The notes below the pieces were generated by a model, which ran no database searches, was not told where the DNA came from, and was given only the letters and a program-made list of their open reading frames with translations. Made by a program: the position numbers and the translations under genes. 64,000 bases of DNA from Xestospongia muta (lineage: Eukaryota; Porifera; Demospongiae; Haplosclerida; Petrosiidae). The stretch covers positions 4,729,214 to 4,793,213 of the forward strand of contig OY848924.1 of NCBI GenBank assembly GCA_963693285.1, read 5' to 3'. Positions 22,197 to 53,426 of the stretch are shown one piece after another. How positions within the stretch are numbered: the first letter of the stretch is position 1; every line of letters begins with the position of its first letter.

Positions 22197-23163
22197 TAGT
22201 AAGTAGTAACAACACTAGCAAAACTCTAAACACTAAACACATGGATCGATTAATGTGGGAGGAGTTAATTATTATTCACAACTATCAAATATTGGAAGGC
22301 AAAAAAGTCTGTTCGAATCTATTGAACTTGGCTAAAATGTTCGAACATTTGTCACGAGAACACTAATTACTATACAAGTTTTGAACTGATAGAGTTACTT
22401 TGTCTGTGGGTGATTTAAGGAAAGACCTCCATAAATAAATTCATTTCTTACATCCCTTTGGATAACTCATAATGTAGATGAAGTAGGCAGCTAAAAGACT
22501 CAATGGAGGACACTCGTTCACCTCATGAATAATGACATAATCAGCAATTAAGTATTGACCAAGTCCTTCAAAATCACCAGTTACTAAAAGGTAAGGTTGT
22601 GGCTGCTGATTTTCCTTTACAATTTTCTTAATATCCATGGCACCCTACAGCAAATATTTCATTCGTGGACTCTGGAAGTAACATTGGCAGGATAACCAAA
22701 CCTAACAATGAATAATTACCTATGTATGTCAAAATTAGCACAAATTTTTACAAATTATGAACTGACTATCTCATATGTCATCCAGCAGTTTCTTTAACTG
22801 TACAGAATGTTGAGCATCAAGTTTAGCCTGTTGAAGTAACATTGGATAAAGCTCTTGCTATGGATCTTGAAAATCTTTAAGTGTAATACTGTTGTCACAA
22901 AGCCTCTGCATCTCCATCAATAGCTTCAAGTGCAAAAAACATGTCCATCAGTAAAAAAAGAAATGTTTACCTCATTTCTTTTGTAAGAATGGATACTTTT
23001 CAAATAAAGACACTAAATCTAAATCACAGGGTCCTGCAGACGCATATAATCTGAGGATTCTTGCTTCACAGGCCGGGTTTTTTATCTCTTCTGAATTCCT
23101 TGAAACAGTTCATAAGGGATTGAATAATTGCACCCTGAAATAAAAAATGCACTAAAGTGCTTA

Positions 23164-24002
23164 ACCTCGCTGCGGTGCCCAGTGTAAATCTATACTGCAG
23201 AGTGCATGTAAATGTACATTTAAGATTGGACAAGGTGTGGTCAAATTATTGATGGATCACGTGATGCACATTGCAAACTGTTGTTTGATGACTCAGCATT
23301 TCTCTTCAATCAAAGGGAAAAAAGCTTTGTTGTTTACTGGGTACTTTGCACTCTGATTGACATGTCTGTGAAGCTGTAACTGAGTAAGTAATAGTATCAT
23401 TCAATTGCCAAGCAAGATTAAGTGCTAGATTCGTGATGAATGTTTCTCTGACCCTTTACATGACACTATAAATTGTTTCAATATTTCATATGCAAAATGT
23501 ATTGTAACTTGAAAATGAAGCGTTCTTTGGAAACGTCCTGTAGTACAAATATAAATCGATATATTATCTATTAGTACCAGTTTTTTCAGTGCTTTGAGAC
23601 GTTTCCTGAATGTGTTACTTCGCTCCAAGTCCATGTACGATCCTGAAAAACTTTTCAGAACTTTTCTGACGATTGCCTCGACCAACGCCCTTCTGTCTTG
23701 CTTACACCATACTAAAAAATCGCCATGTAAGGTTTTTACTTTTCGAGAAATGGCACTTGACCTCTGCAGCCTGAAAAGTCTTTTGCAAGTTTAAGTTTCT
23801 GTTTTTCTTGACGGATGTTCTTGATACTACTGTTGTAAAGTCCACATGTTTTTCTATTCGTTGCTAAACGTTGGTAGCTGCTAACGCTTGAGTTGCCAAG
23901 TTATAGCAGTTCAAAAAAAACAACCCCAGTAACAGACACACACACACACACACACACAAACAGACTACAGTACCCTTGCTATGCACCCACGCACAGCGAG
24001 GT
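23164..24002. mobile_element. TA-flanked insertion in an intron of SAMD3-like copy 1
   Basis: The two ends are inverted repeats: ACCTCGCTGCGGTGCCC at left, and ACCTCGCTGTGCGTGGGTGC when the right end is read in reverse. TA dinucleotides flank both (23162-23163 and 24003-24004). It starts 25 bp inside the intron after the 24028 splice donor. It holds a (CA)n run at about 23936-23958 and no recognisable transposase; the small ORFs inside match nothing I know. It is probably a non-autonomous Tc1/mariner-like element. Confidence 0.6.
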
Positions 24003-24595
24003 TAGTAATAATTGTAATTAAAGTTACATTATAAATATAGCGTATATATGGTGTTGACTTCATATATTCATACTTGTCAAAAATACTAACACTGACATTT
24101 CTATAGTCCTCAGCAGTTGGATAACGCTTGTAAGCTAGCATAGAAGATGATACAGCTGATAAAAATTGACTACAAGTCTCCTTTGTCAACTGCTTAGTTT
24201 CCAATGCCACCTTCACATCATGACAAAAGTACTTTGGCAAAGGAAATGGGTTTGGCAATGGTATGGAGTCGTTTGAACATTTTCAACTTTTCTCCTCGTT
24301 TTACTGTTTCTTCTATCAAACAATGATCCATCACTTGTGTTAGCATCTAATGATGACCCATCAGTATTATCTTTATCCTCATCTTTTGACAGGGGCAAAC
24401 TCCTTCTTACTCTTCTGGTGAAAGTCTTAGTTTCAGACTTGTGACTTGAGGTACCAGTTGGTGTAAACCTTGGCATACTACCTTCACTAGACTATACAAG
24501 ATATTAAGGCACATTAATTGTAACAACAATCTTTAGTTTCTCTCTATTGCCAAATATTTCATCATCATTCAAATCCACAAATTTGTTCCAGTCAT

Positions 24596-24773
24596 GGGTG
24601 TTTCTTGGTGTAACATGACTATGATGACATCATAATGAAATGACACAAGTGATGTCATCATCATATATGATGACATCACCTAAACCTTAAACCAAACTTA
24701 ACATATTATCTCTGTATGTGTCATTATAGGACAAGTTGTTACATTATTGGTCAAGTTACACCAAGATGCACCC
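24596..24773. mobile_element. 178-bp MITE inside a coding exon
   Basis: Inverted repeats GGGTGTTTCTTGGTGTAAC (left) and GGGTGCATCTTGGTGTAAC (right, read in reverse) bound the element, and the exact 8-bp duplication CCAGTCAT flanks it (24588-24595 and 24774-24781). Eight-base duplications fit a hAT-related MITE. An internal inverted repeat at 24649-24679 has 13-bp arms (GTGATGTCATCAT) containing a CRE-like core. Removal of the insert and one duplication restores a reading frame that aligns with SAMD3-like copy 2. Confidence 0.88.
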
Positions 24774-25024
24774 CCAGTCATGGTCATATTGCTGAAATGT
24801 TACATCAATTGCAACATGCTTTTCAAAAACAAATTATGTTTTGAATTCTCTTTTTAAGAGTGGAATATCTACTTGTTCTAACTCACAAGGAAGCTTGATC
24901 ACTTTGTTACTTAGTTACAGTCTAGGTACGAGACAAGCACAGACTTCATAATAGTGAAAAATTAGCACAAGGTTGGTGTGAAGAAGTGTGACAATAAGGT
25001 GGAAATAGGGCTTTAATAAGAATA

Positions 25025-25363
25025 ATGGCTACTGCTCAGTCTACTGTTTTTGGTGAGAGTGTTGTCGGTGTTTCACAAGGTGTTTCATGTTCGGTTTCAT
25101 GTTGGATTTGTTGCAAGTATGCTGCTCCAACTCTAAAAGCAGCCATTCATCATACTGGGGCTATTAACCCTCATGATCCCAATTTTAATATCCGTTGTGG
25201 AATCTGTGGATGTTCCAGAGTAGACGCAGTCTTCCAGTCCTTCAGAAGGCATTTCTACCATAAGCACCGCCATGTTAAAACTCTAGGAATATTGGGAAAT
25301 TTGAGTGTAACTGACGAGGCACATTTTGGAAATAAATCAAATTCTATAGTGTCCTTGGTATAA
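25025..25363 (+). pseudogene. C2H2 zinc-finger N-terminus of EnSpm-like transposase, copy 1
   Basis: The + strand ORF starts with a Ser/Val-rich leader and then CWICC, a histidine region, and the block FNIRCGICGCSRVDAVFQSF followed by RRHFYHKH. The pattern F-x-x-x-CGI-x-x-C...F-x-S-F-x2-H-x-Y-x-x-H recurs in the first coding exons at 48109 and 51321. Only this exon survives: a Gypsy element begins about 15 bp after the stop. It is head-to-head with SAMD3-like copy 1, about 100 bp from the first recognisable block of that gene. Confidence 0.7.
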
Positions 25364-25378
25364 GGTTGTGAAGGAGAG

Positions 25379-28300
25379 TTAATGAGACTTGATGTGATCC
25401 ACATGTCGGCGAATTATCTTTCCATTCTCAATCTGAATTGAATAAGACAGTGGTCCAGTAACATCCACTATTTCTCCGGGTATCCATTTCTGGGCAATGA
25501 AGTCCTTGACCATCACAAGTTGACCTTTTGAAAAGTGTCGCTGCTTGACATCTTTATCATGATGAGTTTTCTGGTTGCTCTTTTTGTGGTCACAACAGAT
25601 TCAATGTTAGGTTTCAATAAATCAAAACGAGTACGAAGTTTCTGTTGCAGAAATAATTCTCCAGGAGAGATGTTAGTAGTAGCATGAGGGGTTGATCTAT
25701 AACCAAGCAAGAACTGAAGTTTAGTTCATCTTGAGCGTTAGTCTTCATAGCTTCCTTAAAAGTTTGAACGAACCTTTCTGCTAACCCATTTGTAGATATG
25801 GGTTAGGGTGATATGGAGCACTACGAATATGCTTAATCCCATTAGCTTTCATAAAGTCAGCAAATTCTTCAGAGGCGAATTGTGGTCCATTGTCTAACAC
25901 TAATTGTTCAGGGAGACTGTATTTTGCAAAGAGATTCCTGAGTGCTTCAATAGTTTTAGAAGAGGTTGTTGAAGGCATTTGAATCACTTCTGGCCATTTT
26001 GAGTGCGCATCCACCACTACCAGGAACATCTTATGCAGTGGCTGATTGTGATTTATTTTCAAGGCAAGGAAGACATGACTTTGTTAACTTCTCAATATCC
26101 TTGTCAATTCCTAACCACCACATGTAGCTTCTAGCTATGGTTTCATTTTAGTGACTCCTGGGTGGTTCTGATGAAGTGTCTGTAGAATTCAATCTTGTAG
26201 CCTTTTTGGAATAATGACACGAATACCCCATAGTAGGCATCCACTTTCAATTGTAATTTCTTCTTTCTTTGATTGGTAGGGTCGAATGTTATCTGGAACT
26301 TGCTTTGGCCATCCCCTTCTCACGTAATCAACAATCTTACTAAGAATGGGATCACACCTGGTTGCAGTTTGAATTTGATTACAGGTGACTGGTAAGGCTT
26401 GAATCTGAGCGAGATTGAAGATGGTAACTGTCTTCGTTTCACCAACTGCTTCTTGATCATGTAGTGGAAGTCTTGACAGTCCATCAGCATTGCTATGAGT
26501 TTCGGTAGATTTAAAACAAATATTGTAATCATAACCTGACAAAAAAAAGTGCCCATCGCTGTAAGCGAGCAGCAGCTAAAGAAGGAATTCCTTTCTTTGA
26601 GCCAAAAATTCCAGTGAGGGGTTTGTGGTCAGTTATGAGGGTAAACTTTCTTCCATAAAGATATTGGTGAAATTTACAGACTCCAAAAATCGAAGAGAGA
26701 GCTTCTTTTTCAAGTTGTGAATAGTTTTTCTCTGCAGTAGTTAGTGTGCGTGAGGCAAATGAAATTGGTTTTTCCGATCCATCTGGCAGAACATGAGAAA
26801 TCACTGCTCCTATTCTGTAGGCAGAGGCGTCAGCTGCAAGATTGATGGGTAGTCTTGGGTTGTAATGTGTCAATACATTGGCAGAAACTAGTTGTCTTTT
26901 GGCTTCTTCAAACGCTTTTGTACATTCGTCAGTCCATTTCCACTTTTGATTTGCATGGAGCAGACCATTGAGTGAATGTAAAATGCTTGAAAGATTTCGA
27001 ATAAATTTTCCGTAGTAATTGAGTAAGCCAAGAAATGACCAAAGTTCTTGGACATTAGTGGGTGGTGGAGCATTGGTGATGACTTCCACTTTGCTGGGTA
27101 CTGCACAGATTCCTTCTTGATCAATTTGATGTCCAAGATACTCAACAGATAGTATAAGGTAGTGACATGTGTCCTTCTTAAGTGTGAAACCATGCTCTTC
27201 TAATCTGTTTAGCACAGCCGTTAAATGTCGAAGATTTTCTTCGCCGTCTTTTCCCGTGATTAATATGTCATCGATGTAACAAATGACTCCTAGCAGTCCA
27301 TGTAGGATCTTATCCATGAGCCTCTAAAAGATAGCTGGTGCTGATACAATTTCAAATGGCAATCTGGTGAATTGGTATAGACCTTGGTGTGTGTTTATTG
27401 TGACATACTTCATGGAATCTTCCTCTAATGCTAGTTGCAAGTAGGCTTGTGAAAGATCTAACTTTGTAAAATGTTTTCCATTTGCTAATGTAGCAAACAA
27501 ATCTTCAGGTTTGGGAAGTGGGTCTGGTCTACTGTGAGAGCTTGGTTTATCGTGACCTTGTAGTCTCCACAGATTCGAAATCGACCATCCTTCTTGGGAA
27601 CAGGAACAATTGGGGCAGCCCAATCACTGCTATTCACCTTTTTCAAGATCCCTTGTTCTTCCAATCTGTCTAATTCCTTCCCTATAGCTTCTTTGATTGC
27701 AAAAGGTACAGGCCTAGGTTTAAAAAATCGTGGCGTTGCATCAGGCTTTACATTTAGTACTGCCTTCTCCGGGTGTACTGTTCCCAGCTCCTCCTTGAAT
27801 AAGGCTTTGTGCTTATCAAGTAAGTCGTTTAGGTCAATAGGCTTGTTACGAATTGTGGCAATCCGTTGCCAATCAAGGCGAATGTATTTCAGCCAGTTTC
27901 TTCCCATTAGAGGTGGACCATTACCAGGAACTACATAGAGGATGAGTTGAGCAGATTGTCCTTGATAACACATGTCAACATGCAACTGTCCCAGAACAGG
28001 CATAGGTTCATTAGTGTACGTTTTCAACACTAACTTGCATGTCTGTAACTTCAGCTCAGGGAAGTATTTCCTTTTTGTAGCTTCCGAGATTATAGATACT
28101 GTAGCTCCGGTGTCTACTTCCATGACAAGAGGTTTTTGGGCAACCTGTAGCGTGACTTGAATTGGGGGAGAAGTAGACATTGGCTCACTTAGTGTGTAAG
28201 CCCTGCAATCTTCATCTGAATCAGCATCACCTTGAGACGCTTGATGTACCTGATGAGTTCTATAAGTCTTTTCTTTTAATTTCTGTGAATTTCCAGGAAA

Positions 28301-29026
28301 GTTGTGCTTCTTCGGTGGATTAGAACGACAAGCTGGAACTATGTGGCCCTTCTTTCCACACGCATTGCAAATCGAATCTTTGAATCTGCATTCTGCAGGG
28401 GTGTGGTTTGATTTTCCGCATCTGTAGCATGACTGTGGGCTACTTTGGGGCTTGATTGACGTCCCTATGACCTTCTTGATGTGCTGTTCTTGTCCTTTCA
28501 ATCTTCTAGAACTGTGGTCAGCAGCTTCCATCCCTTGGGCGAGTTCCATGGCCTTCACTAGGGTAAGTTTAGGCTCGGATAACAACCTCCGTTGAATGGC
28601 TTCGCTACAAAGTCCACATACAAATCTGTCACGAAGAGCTTCCTCCAGATATGCTTCGAATTCGCACGTAACTGCTAATTTTCTTAGAGAAGCATCATAT
28701 TCAGCCAGAGTTTCACCAGGCCTCTGATTTCGTCTGTGGAATGTGAATCTTTCTGCAATAATTAGCCTTTTTGGTTCGAAATGGTCCTTTAATAATTGAG
28801 CAATTGCAGGCATAGTTAAAATTTTTGGATTCGCTGGATCTGCTAAATCACATATTAGTGAGTATGTAGTGGGTCCAATGGAGCTGAGGAGAATAGGCAC
28901 CCGTTTGTCATCTGCCACTTCATTTGCTTCAAAGTATAGTAGCACCCGATCGAGGTATTTTGCGATTGTCTCCACGTCGGAATTGAATTCGTTGAGGGTC
29001 CCAAATTTTGTTGTACCAGTAGCCAT
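25379..29026 (-). pseudogene. Gypsy A gag-pol polyprotein
   Basis: ATG at 29024-29026 (MATGTTKFGTLNEF). Gag is followed by two CCHC knuckles (CYRCGKSNHTPAEC and CNACGKKGHIVPAC, about 28330-28440), then a protease with MEVDTGATVSII (about 28.1 kb). The RT begins in the same frame. After a frameshift near 27500 it continues with TKLDLSQAYLQLALEED, a TAG after SAPAIF (27320), and the catalytic YIDDILIT (27.26 kb). RNase H (NLAADASAYRIGAVIS, LITDHKPLTGIF) ends in a frameshift near 26530. The integrase core (25781-26062) has VVVDAHSKWPEV and VLDNGPQFASEEFADFM. The C-terminus includes VKDFIAQKWIPGEIVDVTG and stops at 25379. It resembles the K02A2.6-like/Mag lineage. At least four lesions make it inactive. 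Confidence 0.9.
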
Positions 29027-29060
29027 TATTTGGTTGAAATCCACAACCCTCGTCGCCAAT

Positions 29061-29269
29061 TGTAGTGTTTGGTTAAGTTAAAATAATTTTATAATGGAAC
29101 AAACGACAGAGAAACTAAATTCTATTTATACAAAATCAAGAACAATAAAGAAAAGAACTAAGTGACAACACTATTAACACAAATTAGCACCAATTTACAG
29201 TAGATGTACTAACTAACTACATAATTACAAACAAAACCTAAGTTTGAAAGAGTTCAAAAGATATCACAC
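29061..29269 (-). repeat. Putative 5' LTR of Gypsy A
   Basis: Read on the minus strand it begins TGTGATATC, ends CAAACACTACA and is followed at once by the primer-binding-like sequence, giving TG...CA ends and 209 bp. No second copy is present, so the outer boundary is uncertain; an alternative boundary is 29535 (TGTTGTAC). Confidence 0.45.
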
Positions 29270-31370
29270 CGGTCACCCTTGGGACCAACAAAAATGTCTG
29301 TTATACAAAGGGGGCCTCTTTATACAGAGGCCTTTATAAGCAGGTGAAAATTGCTTGCTGCACTGTTAGCCGGTTGAAATAAAGTTATACAAAGTGAATA
29401 AACAAGCATGAAATACACAGTTGAAAACCACTTAACAATTTGCTTATGGTTAGTTATTGGTGGTTGGTAAAGTACTGCTAAATAGATTTTTGTTGGACTT
29501 GATTTAATTTTGCTTGTTATATCAATTGTACAACATCAAACATTTGTTCAGATATTTTCTCCTCCCCTCTTTCAGTTAAGAATAACAACAAATCATTAGC
29601 AACTCTGATTGTTTCATTAAAACATGTAATGGATGATGCTGTAACATTGTCATCCTCCGTTTCTTCCTCATCACTTTTTTCCTAATCTACATGACTCGTC
29701 TTTGGAGCTTTATTTGATATCACTATATCACAAAGCTCTTCTCTCCAATTTTCATCATCAAATGTGGCTGATGTTGGAATCTCTTCATCAGCATTGATAT
29801 ACACTGTAGCTGACATTTCTGAATCAAATCGATGCACCATTTCTTTTAGACTTTTACCTTGATCTAGATCAGAAAAAGGATCTCCAGTTGTTTCTGGAAT
29901 GTGACTAAAACCACAATGATTAAAACAGTTCTGTATTGTAAGAACTTTTGCCTGGTCCCATGCCTGATTTATCCATCGAATAGCAAGGAGAACATCAACT
30001 TTTTTTGCAATTTCAGAAGCTGTTCCAGATATGCTACTTATTTGAACATACTTTTTTCTGTAGTGAACTTTAAAATTTTTAATAATACCAGCATCTAGAG
30101 GTTGAAGACGGGATGTCGTATTTTTGGAAAGAAATACAACTTTGATGTGAGAAAAGATTTCAGAAAGTTCAGGAGTATGAGAACTCACATTATCCAAAAA
30201 CAAAAGTATGTTTCGATTTTGCTGTGCAAGCATTTTATTGAACTTAATGAGTATGTCAGTCATAATTATTGAATCCATCCATGCTTTTTTGTTATGGTAA
30301 TACGGAATGCCTAGACATTTCTTCTTGTTTATTATTCCCTTAAAACATCTTGGGGATTTGGATTTACCAATCACAATCCCCAGCAGCACTGACAAGAAAG
30401 GCTAAAGTAAGTCGTTTTTTTGCCTTTTGCCTCTCTTACTCTGCTTTTTAGCATCAGCAAGAGTCTTATCAGGTAATGCACGAAAGAAGCAAGCAGTTTC
30501 ATCTTCATATCCCTGAATTAAGCTTGTGAGTCATTCCAACCATGCTTGAACTGTTCCTTCATTAACATCTCCAGATTCACCACTGATTACGAGTTGCTTG
30601 ATGTTATGCCTTACATTTAAGCTTTGCAAACATCCATTGGAAGCTTTAAATTCATGGTTGTCCATACGTTGAGCAATTAGTAGTGCTTCTTCCTGTAACA
30701 TTGGGCCAGTGACTGGGATATGCCTCTCTCAAACAAGAGAATACCACTCAAACACAGCGTCATCAATACTCTTGTACTTCGCTTCTCGCTTTCGTTTTCT
30801 GTTTGCAGGAGTATGCATTTCGTATTGGATCTTGATCGTGTCCTTGGACTTTAGAATTAATTGAATTTGAGTTCTACCACATCCAAAAATTTCAGCCAAC
30901 TTTCTACTTCCAGTCGATGGATTCTCCTTGAAGTATTTAATAAGCTTCATCTTATTCTCAAGACACAGAGTGTTCCTCCTGGCCATGTTCAGGTCACGCC
31001 TGACTCATGTGAACACTCGTGGGTACTGAAGTGTGAAGTTGATCGAAGTTGTCAAGTTTTGAGTCTGTGCTTTAATAATGGCATCTCAGATCGTTGATAG
31101 TGAAGCATCATGCTGCTACAAATGGCTATCCTATATTAGAGGATTTCATGAATACAGCAATATATAGTCTCCATATGTTGGAGAAGTATTGCAATGTACT
31201 TTTCATTGTTGGGGCAAAGTGAGCCGGCCATTAACCGTATTATAGAGTGACCATTCAGCCAGATTTCATTTGTACTATGAATATGGGAAAAATCGTTGGG
31301 ACTTTACCACATGACCGTTTTAAATTAGCAGACCACCTTACTCAGGTGACTGCTAAGTCAGGTTCCATTG
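29270..31370 (-). mobile_element. Second pogo/Tigger element
   Basis: The right end, read inward, starts CAATGGAACCTGACTTAGCA and is followed outside by TA (31371-31372). The left subterminal sequence (29270-29350, CGGTCACCCTTGGG and following) resembles the right subterminal sequence, but the very tip is missing where Gypsy A abuts it. It carries a broken transposase on the minus strand. Confidence 0.6.
29682..30986 (-). pseudogene. Tigger transposase 2 (CENP-B HTH plus DDE_1)
   Basis: ATG at 30984-30986. The N-terminal helix-turn-helix (LCLENKMKLIKYFKENPS, GSRKLAEIFGCGRTQIQ) ends at a stop at 30729. The linker resumes in other frames with MDNHEFKASNGCLQSL and ACFFRALPDKTLADAKKQ. The catalytic part (29682-30395) keeps KSKSPRCFKGI, NKKAWM, ILLFLDNVSSH (second Asp) and TSRLQPLDAGIIKNFK (third Asp). 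The tail is acidic. It differs in sequence from the 3.1-4.5 kb transposase, so these are two Tigger families, not duplicates. Confidence 0.87.
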
Positions 31371-31372
31371 TA

Positions 31373-33650
31373 TTATCATTTTGAAGTAAAGGGTAAATTT
31401 TCTGAATTAGTTAATGAATCAGAAAGCCAGAATGATTTTGAGCCTTTTCAAGGATTGCATTCAAATTACCTACAGAAGTACTTTAAGGAGACATTGCACA
31501 TTGTAGTATGCCTGGTTCTTGATATGACATGCATAGAGTGGTACTTACTATAGAAACCAGTAGAAAGAAAGGTTGGGCAGAGATTTCAGTTAACACAATG
31601 TACTGACAGGTCACACCTGATAGCAATGAACGACTATATGTATGATGAGTCTCTAACTTTGTCTCTCCAACAGCTCCTGTCAGACCAATTTATTTAAGAT
31701 GAAGTGCGCTAATATTTTAATAATCATTTGTTGTGCATATGTGATATACATTCTAAGAGGCCATGAGTGAAGTGACCAATTACTTGGTGATTACTGTGAT
31801 GGTACTACATATGCAGCTTATCCTTTTTTCTCTTGTGAGCCGTGTGCTTTGAAATCACTTAGGCACCAAAACTAAGATTCATAAAGTGGGTATGTTTAAT
31901 ATTTGGAATGCCTGTATATAAATGATGTGATTACAGGTACTTTTTATTAAGAGGAGAACTGAGAGCAGACTCTGTGATTACTAGGTTATGGCATAACTAC
32001 ATTAACATCATGTAAATGCTACAGTATATGCTATCTTAATACATAGTTATCAGCACCTTATACTTCGGGAATAAGCCACAGATAAGGCTCTTTACATCAG
32101 TAGTATAATAAGGGTTTATATCATTCTATAGATACATTATAAGCACCTCTGTTCTGAGCTCTTTTATATATCTGAAGTAAGGTGTACTTATGCTGTATCA
32201 TATCATTGTTATAACTATGTTATATCATAGCTTATTTTGGGGGAGATATTTTCACAAAAATGAATTGCAACACAAATGCACTATAATAATAATGTCAATC
32301 AGAACTAAACAAATATTCAGAATCACTGTCCTCTTCTCTTTCTACTGTTGCTGTATCAGGATTCAGTACTGACACAACAACTGATTCACCATCACCATTA
32401 TCTTTATTTAGTCCATCTTTAAGCATCCACAGCTTTGCATTTTCTGGAATTGTCTTGAACTGGTGATCCTCCTTCTCTAGTGAATCTTGCACGGGAAGAA
32501 TTTTCACATTTTATTCATTACATTTTCCATGAACAAGTTAAATCAATCAGATGTTTTTTTTCTTCAGACATCATGTCTGGTATTACAGACTTCCAAAGTG
32601 TCATTTCCGGCCTTGATGAACAAATCTTGTACATCTTTTGAATGTATACATTATAGAAAGCATAAGTATTGTGTGGTATATATTATATACAAAACACACC
32701 TACTGCTTTCTCAATCTCAGTTGTTTTTGACTCTTGATTGGGTCACCACATTCAGTTATAACTTCTTTATAAGTCTTACAACCATCTACAAGGAGAATAA
32801 TCTCCAACTGCAGAAATAATAGTGCTCACAACTTTAGTATTATGACTTCCATTTATTCTGTGTGTAAGAATAAGAAAAGGTTACGGTTCATTTGTCTTGA
32901 ATTGTGTGTCCTCATTCATTTCATTATGCACTGCTCATATTTTGTTCTATTAATAAGAAATAAAGTATAGTGGATTATCATTCTTTGCATCATAGCATGA
33001 GCGTACGTTACTGGTACGTTACTGATATGTGTGTGAGCAGTACTTGTAAGACAAGGGGTGTACCTCTTTTGCGTTTACCAATACTGCTAGGAGTTACAGA
33101 AGTGCTTGAAAGAATACAGTCGATTGTAAATACAGTCAATTTTGGTAGAAACATTACCAAGTTTTGAGTCCTTACATTGAAAAGATTGAAGTATGCTACT
33201 CAATATCTGAATGTTATTATGACTTGTAACATGACCATCATTTTTAATTGACCATTGTTTGTTCCAGTATGGCAAAGAGAAGTAGATCTATTTCCAGTCA
33301 GGAGAGATTGTATTGTGGTGGCGACACTAAAGAATTCATCTAGTTATACATAATTGTGTTCAGATCCCAAAGGCTGATATCGCGACCTATAGTGTGTATA
33401 TATAACATATAATTGAGTCTCGTTGTACGACAATGAACCTTATAGAACAAACATTTTATCTTCCTGACATGTTATAATAGTCACTTAGTATACTTACAGC
33501 TAACAATCATCGCTTACACAACAAAACTTTTTAGTGATTACAAAAATCTTAACTTCCATTTGATATTTCATTACAGAATTCTACTGTATATATCACAAGC
33601 ATATAAATTAGGGTGATCCTGATGTTCTCATGTTTTATAGTAAGGCATGT
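31373..33650. other. Unassigned region with possible exon remnants
   Basis: A 61-codon + strand ORF (31368-31553) is unrecognised. On the minus strand, 32295-32507 encodes an acidic C-terminus (ending EEDSDSEYLFSSD), and open stretches near 32600-32640 and 32710-32830 with AG before LEIILLVDGCKTYKEV could be preceding exons. I recognise no family, and I see no inverted terminal repeats. Confidence 0.3.
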
Positions 33651-33657
33651 ACTGTCA

Positions 33658-33663
33658 CATATA

Positions 33664-33726
<63 letters not shown>

Positions 33727-33757
33727 GTATATATATATATATGTATATATATATATG

Positions 33758-33788
<31 letters not shown>

Positions 33789-34063: not shown

Positions 34064-34066
<3 letters not shown>

Positions 34067-38036: not shown

Positions 38037-38040
38037 ATAG

Positions 38041-39000
38041 GCATCAGATAACAAACTATTCTTAGCAATTTACACAGTGCAGTTTTATTTGCCTTTCCTT
38101 TAAATAGAGTAACATGGATTAAAGTTAATGCACAAGGAATCTATGACTTTATTTCTGAAACATCTAGTCTTATTGATGATAATGTAATTGGTTTATACAA
38201 CAGATCAGGCTCTAATTTTGTAACAATTAAATACTACCTTGTTGAAAAGATATAGATTAACTTAATATATGTGAACAATACAAGTAAGGTGGTAGTCACA
38301 CAAAGTGTTCAGAGCACATTATTAGTGTGCCAGAGTACAATATGAGTGTGCAGAGCACACAATGTGTCTTACCACACCATAGGTGTGCCAAGTGAAGGGT
38401 GTGTAGCAAACTCTCCTCTTTTTACAGTGATGTGCTTATGAGCACACCAAAAAAATGTGTGTTAGTCACACAATTGCAAGTGTGATGATTGGTGTGCTTG
38501 GAAAAGGACATTAAGAAAAAAGTACAGAAATATGAGGACAATAACACTAATGGCCCATCGGCTTCTATAACTTCTGTTATTATCTTACAATCAATTACGA
38601 GGATAGTTCTAACTTGAACAACTTGTTAAAAAGAAACAAATGCCCACACTGTATTTGCTGCTTATTGGTGATTTAAAAGAAACGATAGAGCTTTTTCTCC
38701 AAAAATAGTGTGAGTAACACTAATTAACACATTATACTAGGAGCAGGGCCCCAAAAGTAAACATAACCCTAATTATCACCATTAAGTTTCATGTATACTG
38801 TCAATGGTTAAGGCATGGCAAATTTAAGTATCATTTTACTTTATTAAAAATATAAAAAAATAAGTTTTTAAATAGTTATTTTCCACATTCTAAGTAGTTT
38901 TTTTAATATACTTTAGTTCTCTACAGAGTTTTAGTTAGATATTGGGGGTCGTTAGTAGGCACTATATTGTGCTTACCATAGAAGTCATTTTCAAATTGCC
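38041..39000. other. Unassigned region; small ORF and GTGTGC-rich cluster
   Basis: A + strand frame of about 66 codons ending at a TAG at 38253-38255 (RVTWIKVNAQGIYDFISE, YNRSGSNFVTIKYYLVEKI) could be the last exon of an unknown gene. At 38286-38512 the words GTGTGC, GCACAC and TCACAC recur at least a dozen times in both orientations, as in subterminal regions of DNA transposons, but I find no bounding inverted repeats. The rest is AT-rich and empty. Confidence 0.35.
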
Positions 39001-43143: not shown

Positions 43144-44840
43144 TTAGAATGTTCACTATTGGTGGGCAGCTAGAAAATCTTTTGCGGATCATAGTAATTT
43201 CATGCACAAGTAATACAACTGGATCATGTATGTTAAGAAGTAAATTATTTATTATAATATTCATTATAATCTTGTAGGAGTGGCCAACATGCCTTGTCAT
43301 GGCATCCAAGAGAGAACAGACTCCCGTTTCCCTTCAAGTGAATTGTAGGTTTGCTCGTGTAGCCATTTTCTAGATATGTTTCCTGAAAATATACGTTCTG
43401 GAAAAACTACCGAATACTGGTATGGAAGTGGGGGTATATCGACTTTCAATCAGCATTGTAACTATATTTTAGATGCCTTTGGCAAAAAATGGCATCCTAC
43501 TGTACATTGAGACCTTTTCTCAATGATACATAGTGAATAAAGTAATGAATGTCACAGCTATGTAGTTATATACTTACAGAAGAGAGCAATACTGCTAGCC
43601 AAAGTATCGAGAGGTGATGAGAAAGAGGAGAGTTAGGCACACCTACAACATATATCAGTAATTTTAATATACATGATACATAGGGAATGAATAGGCCAGA
43701 GTTAAAGTAATGTCATGGCTATGTAGTATAACTTACAGAGGAGCAATACTGCCAACCAAACTATTGACAGTTGTAGATGTAAGTAGGTTTTTCATACTAT
43801 TATAATACTCATGAATTGGCAACTGCTGGCAAGTCACACTTGCCTTACTACATCATCAATACTACTTACTATATTACCTGACAAGTATACCGAAGAGTTG
43901 AAACTTCCATGACATGATCCAATTTTTGGCCTCATAAGATGGCTGATTTAGCTTACTTACTCTGTAGTAAGATGAGGCAGTAGGAAAAATGCTAGCATTT
44001 ACCCAGTTTCATGGACTCTGCTGTTAACTATGTATAAGGTGAGTTTGTTGTGAAATTTTGAGATGGAAATTCGTTTTGGAGTTTATAATATATTGGCCTA
44101 AGTGGCTACTATCAACCTCATAATAGTAATTTCATTGGCAAAATTCTTAATTTATTGTTTGTATCAACTTCAACATTATATATGACGTTACACATACTAT
44201 GACACACTGTTGTGCTAAACTTTAAGTCTTTTTTAATGCCTGTTTTACCAACCGCCTATCCCGTTTTCTCCATTTTTTAGACATTTTTGGTTTCGTCCAT
44301 ATCTACAAACAGAAGACTCAACTGTTGACTTTATTACCACAATAGTGATGACTAATCAATATCAAACCACCTACATGTAGTCAGAATGATGTATTTGTTA
44401 GTATTTGTCTGAAATAAAATAAAATAAAATCGTTGTTTTTTAGGCAGTGCGTTGGTGGACCCAGGCCTTAATATAGCAGTGTCAGTGACACACATGACCA
44501 TGTTGTTCCCAGGCTTACACCTTGAATTAGAAATAAGCCAGCAAATCCAGTCCAGCAAAAGGGTTGTCTTCTGTGAAAAGAGAAGGTTACCATAGTAATA
44601 GTTGCTGGCCATACCTGTTAGGAAGATGCTGCTTCCAGTTCGACTTGCTTAAAGATTCTAACTATGATGTCTATCCACTTCTGTTGTCTCAGAAAATTCA
44701 GTTTAGAATACGGCACATTTCATTAAGTGTCTGTGTGTAAACACTTTTACATGTACATAACAATTACTACTACCTGATCTTGTTTACCCAAGTATGGGTA
44801 TTTCTCAAGTAATGTTGTAATGTCACAAGGGTTATTCATG
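43144..44840. other. Non-coding region with a tandem duplication
   Basis: Sequence at about 43528-43620 recurs at about 43676-43770 (GATACATAG..GAATGAATAG/AAAGTAATG, GCTATGTAGT, CTTACAGA, GCAATACTGC). The rest is AT-rich. A minus-strand 86-codon ORF (44352-44612) matches nothing I know. Confidence 0.45.
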
Positions 44841-45059
44841 ATATCCTGCCTCCTCATACAGAAAGACTCTTCATGAGCTCTTTAACAACAGATGAATTTG
44901 GACGAGCTTTAAACATCTCATTAATCAGTCGCCTTAAGGAGACATCATCACCAGTGGTGGCAGAGGCAATTCAGCATTGGTCAGGCAACAGGCAACAAGA
45001 AAAAATTTCTGAACCATGCTCACTTTTGGTTCCATGCCCTTCATAATTGTAATTGCTTG

Positions 45060-47110
45060 ATAAATTATTAATTTATTGTTGAAATTTACCAGCAACATCA
45101 ATTAGGTTCATTTGTCATGTAATTCATTGTAAATGTTCAAGATCATGAGGTGATTTAGTCTAGACTGTCAAGATGAACAATCCAACAAAGCTGCTTGTAG
45201 AAGAGACATTGTCCTTTTGACATGCTTTCAAAAAATGAAATAACATCTTGTAATGTAAAATCACCCTGGTGCTGTTCAGTGAAACTTGATGTAAATATCT
45301 GAAGCTGTGTTGAGAGCTCACTTTCACTGACGTCATCACCATAGAACTAGAGAATAGATTGGAGCTCTGTAGAACAATCATTGTTTTTTGCTGCTATCAA
45401 GAGTAAATCTTCGAGATTTTGATAAAGGACATACCCAGGCTTATCGAAACATTGTTTGATACTGGGTATAGCTAAATCGAAGGCTTTGAAGTATACTCAA
45501 ACTGTTTTGGCATTTTTATTTTCCTAGGCAGAGATGGTTCATCAGTGTGAGTATTTTCACATACATGATCCACTTGCTTTGCAATCACCTGAGCTTCAGA
45601 AGCTGACATACTCTTGTGCTGAATCGTCTTACTCAAGTTGTCAGTAATCTTTAAGATTCTTTCACAAAGACACAAACCAAACAAGAGTTTGTACTTTAAC
45701 ATCTGCATATTCACATCTATGATTCTTCCTTTTATATCTGGATCATTCTTTTGTTCATCATTCTTTTGTTCTAAGCATTCATTCCAAAGTTGCTTCAAAA
45801 CATTATAGTTCTCTATGACACTGCTGATGGACTCACCCTATACAGTCCACCTGGTAGGGCAAACTTTTCATATACCAACTCTGGCAATGGACTCTTCATT
45901 GCAATCAGATTTGATTTGGTCAAAGGCATTGTTTCGTTTTGGAGAATACTTCACTAATCGACAAATTTTAAAAGCCAACTCTAATGCCTCATTACAAATT
46001 TGTGTTGCTGACAGCTAGGTTTAAAGCATGCCCATAACAATGAGTGTAAATAGCCCTCTTTTCTTCTAGAAGAATTTGTGTGGCCACACCACTCTCTCTT
46101 CCACTTATATTTGAGGCTCCATGATAACATTGGCCACGGCACTGAGAAACACTTAGACTCATTCCAAGTAATGTGTCTTTGATAGCATGGACAAGAGTTT
46201 TAGCATCAATGCTTGGTACTTCATATAGACCACTGAAATTTTCATGGTCTTCAAGGTCATCATCTACCCACCTAATACAGAGAGTGAATTGTTCCTTGTT
46301 GGAGATGTCTGTACATTCATCAGCCATGATGACATAGCAACCTGCTTTGCGGATATTGCTACTCAATTCACGAATAATATGAAGTGCCATGATTTGCAAT
46401 TACTCATTTTGAATATCATGGCTAATGTATTTATCTGTTTTCTTCTTCAGCCATGTTACAATCTCTGAGGGATCTGAACTTTGCAAAAGCAGAAGCTGCA
46501 TAAAGTTGCTGTCTATTTCCTCCTGGGCCTCCACAATATTGTGCCTTAATGGAAGGCCTCGACGAACCAAAAATCTAACACTCTGGAGTATTTTAAGCTG
46601 CTTATCTAGCACTTCTTCAATATCACTCACCTGCTTGGGAAGAACAAGTAGAGCCTCAACTGCTTCATAATGATATCTACTTTCTTGATGCTTTTTAAAT
46701 GCTGCTGTTGCTTCCTTCCAGTACACAAACCCTTTGCTAATGAAGGCTGGATCTCTTTTATACTGGACAAAAACTTGTTCTCATGTTCAGCTGTTGTGCA
46801 CAAATGACAAAATGCTACATCTTTCTAAACATCATAATGTAGCCATGGATATTTGTCACACCAATCTGCTCTCGTTTCAGAATGAAAATTCTATGGCAAT
46901 TCCATGTGCTCCCTCTTGTGAATATTACTTAATAATAATAATTAATATTTTAATCACTTTGTGGGCTACAATTAGAAAAATTAGAATATTGAGCAGTCGA
47001 GCAAACTCGAGCTTCTTTTGCTGAAACTTTTGGGCTCTCAAATAATATTGGTCCGGCTGCCGCTGGACCTGCTGGACCTGCTTTGCTACCACCATTCACC
47101 TAAATTAGTT
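45060..47110 (-). pseudogene. ZMYM1-like hAT transposase
   Basis: The N-terminal Gly/Ala/Pro stretch lies at about 47050-47100. The TTF zinc finger follows (about 46700-46870: CDKYPWLHYDV, FCHLCTTAEHENKF, KGFVYWKEATAAFKKHQES). Frame 46400-46726 continues the linker and 45992-46399 is the DUF4371 core (YVIMADECTDISNKEQFTLC, SQCRGQCYHGASNISG, HCYGHALNLAVS). After a short gap, 45472-45798 holds LWNECLEQKNDEQKND, LCERILKITDNLSKTIQHKS and SLPRKIKMPKQFE. Near 45080-45150 the tail RLNHLMILNIYNELHDK is present, but the SFSALRR block before it is degraded. Frame breaks at 46399 and 45992 and the degraded C-terminus make it inactive. Confidence 0.83.
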
Positions 47111-47277
47111 AGAAATTATAACACTTTCACAGTTGACACTATCTGGAGGAATTAAAGGAGGAATGATGTGTGTTGTGATTGCTGGTTCGAAATTCTTTTA
47201 ATCTGTTTTGTAGTATGCTTACAATGGCCCCCTATGCATAAATTCAAATGTGTACCAACATGTTTTAATAAACTTAC

Positions 47278-48061
47278 ATTAGGACTTCCTTGAGGAGAAT
47301 TAAGATGAGGATACTTATCGACAACTGCGTGAGCATCATGGTTGTAATCTTGAGACATTAGGTAACATTTGTAGATCAACATAGCTCCAGCGACACAGAA
47401 TGTAAACATGCTTGTGGTTTCCCGAGTTATTTTAAAAGCTTGTTCCACATTACAAGGGTAGTACTTTGGGAGAGGAAATGGAGATGGCAATTGAATAGTA
47501 TCATCAGGCTCTTTCTTGACAGTTAGCATCAAAGTACATTTGAGCAAGACTCCAATGACTCATCTACGGGATCTTCATCATCAGATAATATTTTTTTTCC
47601 TAATTGACAATTGATGCAGTGCTTGTTTTTCATCACTCTCTTCACTAAATTGTAACTGTATTGGAGTAAAATTAAGCAGACCTTGAGGAATATCCTTACA
47701 ATCCTGTAATTGAAAATGAATCAATTCATATAAATCCTCAACATAATTAAGAAATGGCATCTTGTGCATACATGTTTGTGAATATTAGAGAATTACTGTT
47801 GGTTTTGTTGTTTGTGATAGAGTAATCGTGATTGGAGAAACAACCACCTTTAGATTTTCTTTCACCCCTCACACAGCATCCCTGTCTAAGTCAACATACT
47901 CTTCCCACTCCTCATTGTATTTCTGAAAAACTATTTCTGCATGCATGTTTGATCCAAAGCAGAATCTTCTTCTAAATTCACTTGGTAAATAGTCAATATC
48001 AGAAACATCCCACCCTTCAGGAATTTTAACGACACTATTGTGTTCCAGGTACTCTGGGCAT
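47278..48061 (-). pseudogene. SAMD3-like gene of EnSpm-like module, copy 2 (5' exons only)
   Basis: ATG at 48059-48061, then VVKIPEGWDVSDIDYLPSEF, RRRFCFGSNMHAEIVF and, after a frameshift, QKYNEEWEEYVDLDRDAV (47.88-48.06 kb). Exon 2 starts after an AG near 47705 (DCKDIPQGLLNFTPIQLQ). A later exon has PSPFPLPKYYPCNVEQAF and VVDKYPHLNSPQGSPN and ends at a GTAAGT donor at 47277. The first block aligns with copy 1 (FVFEKHVAIDVTFQQ, DHDWNKFVDLNDDE). The 3' half is absent; the ZMYM1-like hAT remnant begins at about 47110. The ATG is only 48 bp from the opposing zinc-finger ATG at 48109. Confidence 0.72.
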
Positions 48062-48108
48062 TAATTGGAATTGTAAAATACCATTGGTGTTGTTAGTTAG
48101 AAGCTGGA

Positions 48109-48540
48109 ATGGTAGTGGTGTGTTGGAGTTGTTATGACTTTGCAGCAAGATCCTTGAAAAGATTTATTTGTGATACGAGATCTGTTCATTCTCATGAACA
48201 TAACTTTATTGTAGTGTGTGGCATAAATTCCTGTCCTCGAACATACAAGAAGTTTTCTTCCTTCAAGAGACATTTGTATCATCACAAAGAAATAGTTGAT
48301 GACAATAGTGTTTCAGTAATAACAGAACAAAGTCAACCTGGAAATAATTTTGATAATTTTACAGTAAAGCACCTCCTTTGTGAAGAGAATGGTAGCATTG
48401 GAATTAATCAATGATATTGATGAACAAATTGAATCAAAAGTAAAAGGACTTACGACAAACCTACAGCTGTACCTATCATCTATTGAAATTGACCATGATC
48501 AACATCCCAGACTAAAGGAAATTTTTGAGAGAGGAAAGTC
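48109..48540 (+). pseudogene. C2H2 zinc-finger N-terminus of EnSpm-like transposase, copy 2
   Basis: First frame 48109-48414: VCWSCYDFAARSLKRF, then HNFIVVCGINSCPRTYKKF and SSFKRHLYHH, the same spaced Cys/His pattern as copies 1 and 3. After a frameshift the protein continues (48380-48540) with ALELINDIDEQIESKVKGLT and HPRLKEIFERGK. At 48541 it is cut by the LTR of Gypsy C; no continuation is found on the other side of that element. Confidence 0.7.
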
Positions 48541-48612
48541 TGTAACGTGGGTACAATCCACAGGTTAGAGTTCAAGTCTCAGTTCAACAATGATATATTT
48601 TTCTTATAACGA
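48541..48612 (-). repeat. 3' LTR of Gypsy C, distal piece
   Basis: Read on the minus strand this piece ends CCCACGTTACA, completing the LTR that starts TGGTGTATATC at 53583. The two pieces (72 + 157 bp) are separated by the complete EnSpm-like copy 3. Supported by continuity and TG...CA ends, not by a second LTR. Confidence 0.55.
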
Positions 48613-49140
48613 CACTGAAAAAACTATTGGGTAGGAAGTACCCAAAAAATGGGTCATATTTACTGCAACTCAGACAACCCAGCAGATGGGTCAATTTACC
48701 TTGATCCCAGGTAAAGCTGAACTGACCATAAATCTAACAGTTAAAACAGACAAACCCTATGGTTATAATAACCCTTTAGTGATGAGAAGTTCCGACCCAA
48801 AGCAGTAGTGAAACAACCACAATTACAGTTGCATTAACATCATCAAGAACAGGTTGCTATACCAAATGCACTGATGAAGCAACCACAATGATGGTTGATG
48901 TACCCTTTCAAAAAAGGGGCTAGCTGACTGAATTACCAATAAAGTGACCATACATGACGATTAGAATAACCATGGAACAATTAAGTTTTACACAGTAATG
49001 TAACCACTCATATGGGTTGATATAACCTTGAGAAAGGCTTACTGACCCAGTGTACTGACAATTTATATACCTTTTATATACCTTTTATATAGGTTGATTT
49101 AACCATTCACAATACCATAGTTAACCTAAAATTAGGGTAG
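48613..49140. promoter_or_regulatory. Left subterminal palindrome array of copy 3
   Basis: At least three clear palindromes: TGGGTAGGAAGTACCCA at 48628-48644, GGTTGATATAACC at 49015-49027 and GGTTGATTTAACC at 49092-49104, with weaker relatives between (for example GGGTCAATTTACC near 48700). Related words recur at the other end (53290-53410: GGTAGTTATAACTGG, GGGCAGTAACAACCC). They are candidate transposase binding sites. Confidence 0.6.
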
Positions 49141-49283
49141 AAAAACTTTCTCAAGAGATTGATATGATAAGATAAAGTCAAAGAATGATTGATATAATAA
49201 GATAAGGGTGAAGGATGATTGCTAACAAAACCCTGGCAATAAGGTGCTATGTGGTAAAGTTCAGTGAAAGTTAAACAGAAAGT

Positions 49284-51345
49284 TCAACACAAGTCTTTCT
49301 TTATGTCAGAAACCACTGCTATGTATGAACTAGGTCGCTTTAATGAGTCTGGGTAACCAAGCAGGTAATCTTGGAAAAAGAAAAATATGTTGGAAGCTTT
49401 AGTCGGGTACTCCAGGTTGTAAACATAGTATAACAACCAAAGCCAATAAAAAGTGCTTGGAAGTGACTGCACCTCACATAGCACAGTCTGTTCCATTAAC
49501 ACGAAGTATTGCTTGTTACTTTCACTGATCATGGCTGCCACACGAGGAGCATTCCGTACAGGGTTAGTCTTGATAGCATCCTCAACAGACACTATATCCT
49601 GAAACAGGGAGGGGTAATTATGGTCAGTATTAAGATCATGTATGCATAAATGTACATGTAATGGGAAATATGTATTAGTAACTTACAGAGTTGTATTCTT
49701 CATAGATATAAAGGAGGCTGTCCTGTCCTTTTCCCCCAGCAATTGCCAACACCTTCAGAGAACACGCTTGCTTTGAAATCTCATCTACAGTGTATATACA
49801 ATCAGGTTAACTATACACATACACGTTTAATATATTACTTAAAACTCACCATTTGTATCCACTTCCTTTAGCACAGAAGATATCCCTTTTCTCCCACTGT
49901 TCTGTCCATAGAGGAGAATTGCAACATAGAACTTCTTCCATTGGGACAAGAAATTGCCTCTACTGTCCTCACTGTCAGTGATTAAGCTGATTTCTTGTTC
50001 AATCTAAGATATTAGAATTACAGATGCTATTACTTATCACATACTGAATATTTACGTTTCATACCACTGCATGACGCTGAAGAGCTGGATAATCATCAAG
50101 GATATGTCTGGCACTCGTAGCATCATTGAGAATAAACATCCGATGGCTCGGATAAGTTGACTTCATCAGAGGGAGGAGAACAGAATCCCTAGGCTTTCCT
50201 TTTGCTAGCTCAGTAGCTATAGCAGACAAGTGTGACTCGGTACTGGAAGTATCTTCTGTGAATTGGGCACCAGTGGGATACCTTCTTAATAATGAATCTT
50301 TTTTCCTAGCTTCAGGAGAAAGCTTGCTCCTTTTCACAGGTACATACATGTAGAGTACACTTGAACACTCTGAGGCACATACAGAGTATGCTACATACAC
50401 ATGGCAACTGAAAACAAACAACAGGTATGCTGTAATATATTTAAGTACTTATTCAGTCTAGTTCCCATAGAAACACTGACATGCACATAGAGTATAGCCC
50501 TAGCAATTTGACTCACATATCCATTTCCCATATCATCTTTCATGAACAGGTGGTTCAGGATTAGTTTCCAGACTAGGGAAACACATTGTTCCCTGGTGGG
50601 TTTTACAAAGTGACTAAATAGCAGGCTAACAAGAATGCGCACTATCTCACAGCAAGCAGATTCTTCAAGTGATTCGTTACGAATACATTCTTCAACCTCA
50701 GGGCGCCAGTGCTTCGGTATTTCAAGTCCACGGGACCAGCTTGTTCGTGATACAGAAGACACAGAAGTTGATGGGTTGGAAATGAAGGTGAGGCTGAGGA
50801 AGAGCAGTCCTGTTCTGCTCTAGTTTGAGATTTCCAAAGGAGAAGCTGATGGCAGGGAACACTGAGCAAGAAAACTATTATAGTCACAAAATAAACAAAA
50901 TGAAGCAATTCACCTGATGTAGTTTGAGCATCTTCTTTACAAGGCCTATAGGGGGGACTATTTCCTTTATGTCCAGCTCAGTGAGACTAATGAAGGCTTC
51001 TCCATCAATATAGTTTTCTAAAGAAGAAATGTACCAGGGTGTAGGTAAGTGAAGCTAGTAGTAGCGCTACACAATTAATACTAAGGTAGCAAGCATTTTA
51101 AAGACAAAAGCTAGCTTACCAGCGAAAGCTTCACAGAACTTCTCTGGGATACCACTGTTGGTTTTTAGCCAGTTGGAGAGTTCATCCACGGACATAGAAC
51201 ATATTGAAGTACCAGTAGCCATTGAAGGACTACTAGGCACAGACACACAGCTGTCCACATCCATTTGAATCCTCGGCCAGCTGCACATTGAACACCACGT
51301 GTCTACTTGTATAGAAGAAAATGGCAGCTCAGTGTTCGAGGTCAA
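49284..51345 (-). CDS. SAMD3-like protein gene, seven exons, apparently intact
   Basis: Exons by GT-AG: 51120-51345, 50914-51017, 50517-50819, about 50065-50367, 49850-50003, 49687-49784 and 49284-49598; they sum to 1,503 nt with consistent phases. Exons 1-2 form a SAM domain (MSVDELSNWLKTNSGIPEKF, then ENYIDGEAFISLTELDIKEI). Exon 3 has RGLEIPKHWRPEVEECI and LILNHLFMKDDMGNGY; exon 4 is basic then RRYPTGAQFTED; exon 5 ISLITDSEDSRGNFLSQWKK; exon 7 ends AISE-free with SNKQYFVLMEQTVLCEV and YYVYNLEYPTKAS. This order resembles fish and cnidarian SAMD3-like proteins. Exon 3 could start at 50861 instead, but then meets TAG at 50820-50822; the AG at that TAG gives an in-phase acceptor. The exon 4 acceptor is the least certain. 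Probably an accessory gene of the element. Confidence 0.75.
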
Positions 51346-53199
51346 GTATCAGCCCCTCTCTAAAACAGAAGCTATGTCCTATGTGCTCTTTCGAGTGTCC
51401 CTCTATTGCACTATTGCTGAGTCATTTGCACTTGGTTCACTCAAATGACCCTAGATTTTCTGTTTGTTGCGGAATTGACAGCTGCACTGTGACCTCAAGA
51501 AGTTTCTCTTCATTGTACACCCATGTATATAGGCATCATCCTGATGCAGGTATAAGACGTCGATCTGCTAATAGCTTTTCTGTGGAACCGTCCACTACCA
51601 CTGCTCCCAGTGTTCAACTTGATTCACATGAGGACATCTTTTGTGGAACAGGTATAATATGCCCACCCCTTCATAGCATAGCAAACACTAGTTTATAATC
51701 TGAGTTGTGTAATCTTGTCTACTTGTTCACTTACAGACTCAGTTACAATCTGAATTATTAGTTTGATAATCTGAGTTGTGATACTTGTCTACTTGTTCAC
51801 TTACAGACTCAGTTACAACTGCAGCAGACATTGATCGACTCACAGGATTTGATGAAGAACTTCAACAACGTTCAGGTTTGTAATCCTCTTGGGTCGCATA
51901 TTAAGAAGCATAAAGTTGGACTTGTCTTCTACATGTTGGGGAATATACATCCTAAATTTCGATCAACCTACAGAGCTATCAATCTAGCCATTTTAGCTAC
52001 CAAGCCTGTACTGGAAAAGCATGGGATTGATACTGGAATCATGAAAATCATTGTAAACTGCTGACTGGGCCTACAGAAAGTCACTACTCTAAGACTTATG
52101 GTATAAACTGAAGGTCAGCTTTGTTAGATGTACCACATGATTGTATGCACGATCTCTTAGAAGGAGTTGCATCTACAGAGGTCAAGCTGTTACTAAAGCA
52201 TTGTATTGCTGAAAAATACTTTAGTTTGGATGAGTGCAATAAGTCTATTGTTCACTTCAATTATGGCTACACTGAAAGTGATAGACCAGTGCCTGTTTTA
52301 CAAAGGCATTTTCCATGATCTTTCTAAGCAGTAAGAGGCATTTCCAGTTTTGATCGGATTCAGGAACTTTACTACCAATCAGGAATGGCAAAATCTGTAA
52401 CAGAAGTAGCATTTGAGATGCCAAAGATCTAATGGGTTTGTCACTTGGAGATTGTGTTTGGCCCGGTGGTTACAAATGGTATGGCAGATTCTTTGAAAGT
52501 TCTAATTAATGAACACCATGCAGCTTTGTGTCTTTGTATCCATCAAGCTTTATCCCCAAAATGCATTTTCTAATACACTATCCAGAGCAAATGCTTCAAG
52601 TGGGCCCAATGGTTAGAACGTGGACAATAAGACATGAGGCAAAGTTGAATTTCTTCAAGCAGACTACTGGGATATTAAGCTTTAAGAACATTACTCTTTC
52701 TCTTGCAAATCACCATCAGTGTTTAGCATGCTATGAAATGTCTACTAGTAATGTTTTGTGCTCAAGACTAGAATATGGACCTACATCTACACCATCCATT
52801 ACAGTAATACTTCAAAATGAAGTAATTCGGAGTTGCATTATTGAACAGGTCCCAGGTTTAAGTATGGATACATTGGTATGACATCCTAATTGGGTCCGTC
52901 AAGATGGTGTTACATATATGAACAATAATGCTTATGTTGTGATAGGGCATGATGGCCTGGACCCTGTTTTTGCTTCTATCGAGGAAGTAATTGTCATTGG
53001 TTGTGATATGGTTCTATTTAGTGTTCAGCACTGTGATGTATGTTATTTTGATGATCACTATCATGCGTATGTTATAGATCACACCTCAAAGCAGTCACAT
53101 GAGAATAACGTTGTGGATAGGAATGTATATCATTGTCATGTCATGTCAAATGGTTTGAGATGTGTCACTTTAAATTATTCATTTATGTACATATCATAA
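51321..53199 (+). pseudogene. C2H2 zinc-finger EnSpm-like transposase, copy 3 (internally deleted)
   Basis: Exon 1 (51321-51651, donor GTATAA) holds the finger: LCPMCSFECPSIALLLSHLH, FSVCCGIDSCTVTSRSF, SLYTHVYRHH. Exon 2 (from about 51807, after a tandemly duplicated acceptor region at 51711-51806) reads DSVTTAADIDRLTGFDEELQ and then passes, with the middle of the protein missing, into VCNPLGSHIKKHKVGLVFYM (51.88 kb). Later frames give VPHDCMHDLLEGVASTEVKL (52.13-52.18 kb), FIPKMHFLIHYPEQMLQVGP and TWTIRHEAKLNFFKQ (52.55-52.67 kb), and a C-terminus ending at 53199. The MHDLLEGV and GP-RTWT-R-EAKLNFFK blocks correspond to EnSpm transposase and DUF4218-like regions. Deletions and frameshifts make it inactive. 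Confidence 0.78.
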
Positions 53200-53426
53200 G
53201 AATGTACTATCATTTATAATTTGACAATAAAGTGTTATTTTAACCAAAAGTGGTAGTTTTACGCATGGGAATCCTAGGTAGTTTCTACCAACAAGGTAGT
53301 TATAACTGGAATGGGCAGTAACAACCCATTGTGGTATTTGTAACTCCTGCTGGGTATTTTCTACCAGTCACCAGTATGGAAAATATAACTACATGTGGTT
53401 AAGACAACCCAGATGTTTTTTCAGTG

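Follow-up and report, generated by a model that had tools for sequence, protein, structure and literature searches.

The closest described relatives of the genes reported here belong to CACTA (EnSpm) transposons. In the plant element Spm, as described in excerpts of PMC1636069, the proteins are spliced from one transcription unit, with two open reading frames in tandem in TnpD, while TNPA is essential for transposition, binds DNA in a manner stabilised by TNPD, and reactivates a methylated promoter. Target duplications of plant CACTA elements are 3 bp long (excerpt of PMC4158355). For SmTRC1, a CACTA element of Schistosoma, the same excerpts of PMC1636069 report that 7 of 14 copies have 2-bp direct repeats and that the other proteins arise by splicing, and state that the authors detected no relatives of these proteins in other animal or fungal elements. 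Here we analysed a stretch of 64,000 nucleotides, hereafter the window, from the sponge Xestospongia muta (assembly GCA_963693285.1, contig OY848924.1, positions 4,729,214 to 4,793,213, forward strand). It contains three gene pairs, modules A (22.4-25.4 kb), B (47.2-48.4 kb) and C (48.6-53.4 kb), each consisting of a plus-strand C2H2 zinc-finger exon opposite a minus-strand gene. We call the latter SAMD3-like, a presumptive label from a first-pass annotation of the window. We consider it likely that each pair is the remnant of a separate lineage of a two-gene animal, probably demosponge, CACTA/EnSpm transposon, and that the SAMD3-like protein is accessory to transposition.

Results

The three modules share their layout with one another and with loci elsewhere in the same genome (numbered L039, L040, L041 and L064-L068), which was searched as 158 Mb in 28 contigs, the window lying in contig 8. 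Used as a tblastn query, the zinc-finger exon of L040 matches all three window exons in the right place and on the right strand, at 25112-25270 (E 4e-6), 48100-48366 (E 8e-7) and 51375-51611 (E 4e-9). The minus-strand genes of A and B match reciprocally (E 2.5e-11 with B as query, 6.5e-11 with A), with 42% amino-acid identity in the core exon, and hhalign aligns 346 columns of a profile including both with a C-type protein profile (probability 97, E 6.7e-11). Judged by these alignments, the C2H2 exons of A, B and C are one family and the minus-strand genes another, in which A and B form a subfamily without a recognisable SAM domain and C belongs to a separate one that has it. The start codons lie 56 bp apart in C (51264, minus; 51321, plus), 113 bp in L040, 163 bp in L041, 78 bp in L064 and 98 bp in L068; from the last recognisable N-terminal codon to the zinc-finger ATG, the distance is about 116 bp in A and about 57 bp in B. 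The orientation, spacing and shared motifs described in the first-pass annotation are thus real, with two amendments. Its CGI...H-x-Y-x-x-H signature does mark a common C2H2 family, but in B it ends in Lys instead of His (HLYHHK); and the three minus-strand genes, all called SAMD3-like, are indeed homologous, but those of A and B have no recognisable SAM domain.

Genome-wide, the two genes travel together. We searched with SAMD3-like queries from four lineages (C, B, A and L040) and transposase queries from three (L040, L064 and L065), counting as linked those within 8 kb; the counts cover scored candidates only, which are part of all, and many loci are scraps. A transposase match was present at 45 of 81 SAMD3-like loci, in divergent orientation at 44, in tandem at one and convergent at none; when the transposase positions were shifted circularly 1000 times, linked loci averaged 1.3 and never exceeded 15. 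At the tandem locus, a divergent partner also lies 2.6 kb away. In the search with the L040 transposase, 11 matches extend over 369 or more aligned residues, eight of them from the L040 family, and each is accompanied by a SAMD3-like gene in divergent orientation. Linked loci were labelled by the SAMD3-like query that found them and by the best-scoring transposase query, so that a label denotes a sequence subfamily and not a SAM exon seen at each locus, and related copies do not count as independent. On these labels, A/B-type loci accompany an L064-type transposase in 18 of 18 cases and C/L040-type loci an L040- or L065-type transposase in 26 of 27; with the query families' own copies left out, an L064-type transposase is found with 15 of 15 A/B-type loci versus 1 of 13 C/L040-type loci. 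Such matching of the subfamilies of both genes points to joint inheritance and not to repeated capture.

In each of the four families whose limits could be determined, CACT-type ends enclose both genes, the ends being CACTG in C, CACTGC...GCAGTG in the L040 type, CACTA in L068, and CACTC at one end with CACTG at the other in the L064 type. Of 13 copies in which both ends were read, 11 have matching 2-bp flanks. The L040 element, of about 6.4 kb, is represented besides the reference by four copies that are 99-100% identical in DNA across both genes, plus partial ones, and in the copies compared identity ends at CACTGC and GCAGTG, the flanks being unrelated. Its type has matching flanks in five of six copies (CA, TA, TA, TA and TG; the sixth shows TT versus TA), while TA stands on both sides in three of three L064-type copies with the same ends and in the single copy read of L068, whose CACTA ends enclose both genes. 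The flanks of one L040 copy, once joined, align in a single stretch to a paralogous empty site (1617 columns, 93.5% identity); a one-column gap marks the joint, at which one duplication base was dropped in joining. Deletion derivatives of L040 that kept the SAMD3-like side and lost most of the transposase occur at C4:6840959, C2:6875638, C4:6446872 and C2:17770131; the two derivatives read (L066 and L067) both have the two ends and TA flanks. Because of the linkage, the divergent layout, the position of both genes inside the ends, the matching flanks and the empty site, we conclude that the second gene belongs to the transposon and that the pair is a mobile unit kept together across families, as the proposal of a recurring transposon module had anticipated.

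The transposase matches PF02992 (tnp2/Transposase_21) at E 5e-4 in L040 and 0.0018 in L068, both under the curated cut-off; a relative, P0109, scores 32.1 bits against a cut-off of 28.6, and the family is annotated in part of the 120 homologues listed. Seven residues (D93, D187, C208, C211, H417, H421 and E441) are invariant in 32 sequences and probably represent the catalytic DDE triad with two motifs, C(2)C and H(3-4)H, placed between the second D and the E, as excerpts of PMC12730594 give for the CMC/CMCT clade. A structural model (predicted local distance difference test, pLDDT, 88.6) resembles RAG1, ProtoRAG and Transib, all 47 Foldseek matches at E up to 1e-3 being RAG, BbRAGL or HzTransib entries. 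Separately, ten transposase fragments of about 0.4-0.6 kb each, an amplified fragment, are spread over 1.3 Mb of the minus strand at C1:20863582-22165362, and the genome searches gave no SAMD3-like match near them.

The SAMD3-like gene of L040 is intact, encoding 539 amino acids in seven exons with GT-AG sites, and its ratio of nonsynonymous to synonymous substitution rates (dN/dS) is about 0.31 and about 0.39 against two deletion derivatives, as expected under purifying selection while the element was active. Matches to the SAM domain fall under the curated cut-off in C (SAM_1, E 0.0014, encoded by exons 1 and 2), L040 (E 0.021) and L041 (E 0.0067), and a sponge homologue, P0003, passes it (E 1.4e-7). 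The A/B-type protein of L064 matched no Pfam family at E up to 0.5, and its N-terminus matched no Pfam family or PDB sequence. A profile of three C-type proteins matches 26 PDB sequences at E up to 1, the best being L3MBTL3 (E 1.4e-5) and further ones Polyhomeotic, Sfmbt, SARM1, ankyrin-repeat SAM proteins and a few others; the matched parts are presumably SAM domains. An AT-hook-like RGRP core occurs in six of nine SAMD3-like proteins scanned. Homologues are present in Amphimedon queenslandica, a demosponge (37% identity over 59% of the query), and Halichondria panicea (38% over 54%), in keeping with a probable demosponge source.

Within the window, element C (48613-53426) is the most complete module. 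Its left terminal inverted repeat, CACTGAAAAAACTATTGGGT (48613-48632, plus), was found in a repeat-pair search and recurs at the start of a copy elsewhere, L039; the right one (53407-53426, minus) ends in CAGTG and matches the left at 17 of 20 bases by eye count. The SAMD3-like gene (49284-51264, minus) has about seven exons, the first three placed by script and the rest by eye (about 51264-51120, 51017-50914, 50819-50517, about 50343-50062, 50003-49850, 49784-49687 and 49598-49284), the joint of exons 3 and 4 being uncertain. On the other side, the C2H2 exon (51321-51695, plus; tblastn E 4e-9), which we take to be the first exon of the transposase gene, precedes a broken transposase gene (51834-53199, plus; best E 3e-28 in tblastn with three transposases) that contains in-frame stops and in which tblastn gave no match to residues 149-233, the site of the second conserved Asp and the CxxC motif.

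The other two modules were delimited by tblastn with L064 queries. In B, the SAMD3-like gene (47187-48051, minus; E 1e-10 and 8e-19) comprises a non-SAM N-terminal exon (48051-47821), the core exon (47520-47266) and a next piece (47231-47187), and faces a C2H2 exon at 48109-48411 (plus; E 2e-15); tblastn found no transposase match for this module. In A, a decayed SAMD3-like gene (22369-24908, minus; E 2e-6, 3e-24 and 1e-11) retains N-terminal pieces (24908-24774 and 24605-24384), the core exon (24273-24055) and a C-terminal region (22938-22369), all on the minus strand, and faces a C2H2 exon at 25025-25360 (plus; E 5e-16). Probable remains of its transposase gene (31437-31891, plus) consist of weak matches at 31437-31475 (E 0.012) and 31774-31891 (E 1e-4 to 7e-4), which sit beyond other, inserted mobile-element sequence. 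Module A is old and broken, since an 870-bp dispersed repeat (about 23139-24009) interrupts the SAMD3-like gene, the start exon of that gene holds a stop, and the transposase survives at most as scraps; the repeat has about 40 further places in the genome, mostly 84-90% identical, among the 40 candidates scored out of 1830. A possible fourth SAMD3-like remnant lies at 38485-38601 (minus), where a C-terminal piece matches the L064 protein (E 0.002). Around the modules are mobile-element stretches, all on the minus strand (25382-29077, 29685-31004, 45992-46399 and 53640-56511). By eye they include pieces that are gypsy-like and a transposase that is pogo-like, and a DUF4371 match (E 8e-10) also falls there. 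We take DUF4371 to be of hAT type.

Discussion

A SAMD3-like gene and a tnp2-type transposase gene form one divergent mobile unit that recurs across families of this sponge genome. In the mechanism that we propose, the two genes point away from a short common region of 56 to 163 bp between the start codons, which may serve as a shared promoter. One gene would begin with the C2H2 exon and continue into a transposase whose DDE core is RAG1-like and whose C-terminal domain is BAH-like, zinc finger and transposase probably forming one protein; the other would encode the SAMD3-like protein, with a SAM domain or another N-terminus according to subfamily, followed by a conserved middle and C-terminal part. 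The transposase would cut at the CACT ends, while the SAMD3-like protein, made along with it, would bind the element ends, self-assemble and bring these ends together, as TNPA does for En/Spm. Alternatively, it might shield the element from silencing or keep it active. A functional equivalence with TNPA is plausible but unproven, and is suggested by the position and conservation of the gene, the SAM domain in one subfamily and the AT-hook-like core in six of nine proteins.

Several observations weigh against this reading. In the window, CACTG inverted repeats were seen at C only, no ends being found for A or B; the flanks of C differ (GA versus AA), and no ends were found for L041 and L065. 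Matching flanks outside the L040 type are all TA, so that a fixed TA or a TA target is indistinguishable from a duplication. No partner lies within 8 kb at 36 of 81 SAMD3-like and 62 of 108 transposase loci, and same-family copies are not independent, which inflates the linked count, three of the 45 linked loci being moreover deletion derivatives that keep just the transposase end. Unlinked SAMD3-like loci were sampled by taking every third of the 34 unlinked in a first count (11) and removing one known derivative and window module A; of the nine read, two carry both zinc finger and transposase, divergently arranged, one carries the zinc finger only, and six have neither within about 6 kb. In both derivatives read, the SAMD3-like gene is frameshifted, so that they may have spread without relying on the copy that they carry. 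Finally, the fold model of the SAMD3-like protein is poor (pLDDT 53).

What the SAMD3-like protein does is where the strongest alternative arises. An element-encoded protein could counter host silencing, through chromatin or DNA methylation, instead of forming part of the transposition complex. We regard this as possible but rather doubtful: SAM domains serve in signalling and scaffolding too, one whole subfamily has no recognisable SAM domain, and the AT-hook-like motif found in six of the proteins would be just as consistent with simple DNA binding. A second alternative, in which a host gene was repeatedly captured as a functionless passenger of the element, would account for the 36 SAMD3-like loci without a nearby transposase and for the amplified derivatives that keep the SAMD3-like side. 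It is nevertheless improbable in view of the identical place and orientation of the gene in divergent families, the matched subfamilies of the two genes (15 of 15 versus 1 of 13) and a dN/dS below 1. Moreover, at least seven of these 36 loci align with DNA of known elements, six with the L040 element (C1:8017953, C1:10560181, C1:10628079, C4:2915917, C4:4765788 and C4:6842285) and one with the L064 element (C2:19934552). That the window pairs, all within about 31 kb, are a local segmental duplication or chance neighbours can be dismissed, since A and B share 42% of core-exon amino acids, C belongs to another subfamily, as expected of the three lineages originally proposed, and the 45 linked loci far exceed the shifted control.

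The reading of an accessory protein to transposition has consequences beyond this genome. The persistence of the second gene with the transposase across divergent families suggests that these animal CACTA elements need a partner to transpose, and both proteins and defined ends are now available for a direct assay. Given the RAG1 fold of the transposase model, they add a further RAG-type enzyme whose second protein is encoded separately. We more tentatively suggest that the RAG1-fold CACTA transposase of early animals may act as a recombinase of two components, the second being an obligate SAM-type scaffold protein encoded divergently, in parallel to RAG1/RAG2 but with an unrelated partner, and that some animal SAM-domain genes, including SAMD3-like ones, may descend from the transposon gene. 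Were this origin true, a group of SAM-domain genes that stand unexplained in animal annotations would prove to be transposon genes. No account of a SAM-domain gene in elements of this kind emerged from the literature covered, which took in few subscription journals or Repbase reports, and a description may therefore be in print.

Unlike RAG1/RAG2, ProtoRAG (BbRAGL) and Transib, the elements described here have CACT ends, 2-bp flanks, a transposase of the tnp2 family and divergent genes, the gene order of ProtoRAG being convergent. Fungal EnSpm elements with TET/JBP genes likewise combine EnSpm with an additional gene, according to excerpts of PMC12730594, but theirs is a different cargo, in other hosts and with 3-bp duplications. 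With maize En/Spm, which encodes TNPD and TNPA, our elements share CACT-type termini, a tnp2-type transposase and a second element-encoded protein, but they differ in having two divergent genes and 2-bp flanking repeats, and the proposed likeness to TNPA is one of role. SmTRC1 is similar in being an animal element with Transposase_21 and 2-bp direct repeats, whereas here a conserved second gene recurs across families. An animal CACTA element with a tnp2 transposase and 2-bp repeats was thus already known, and the recurrent divergent second gene is what sets the present elements apart.
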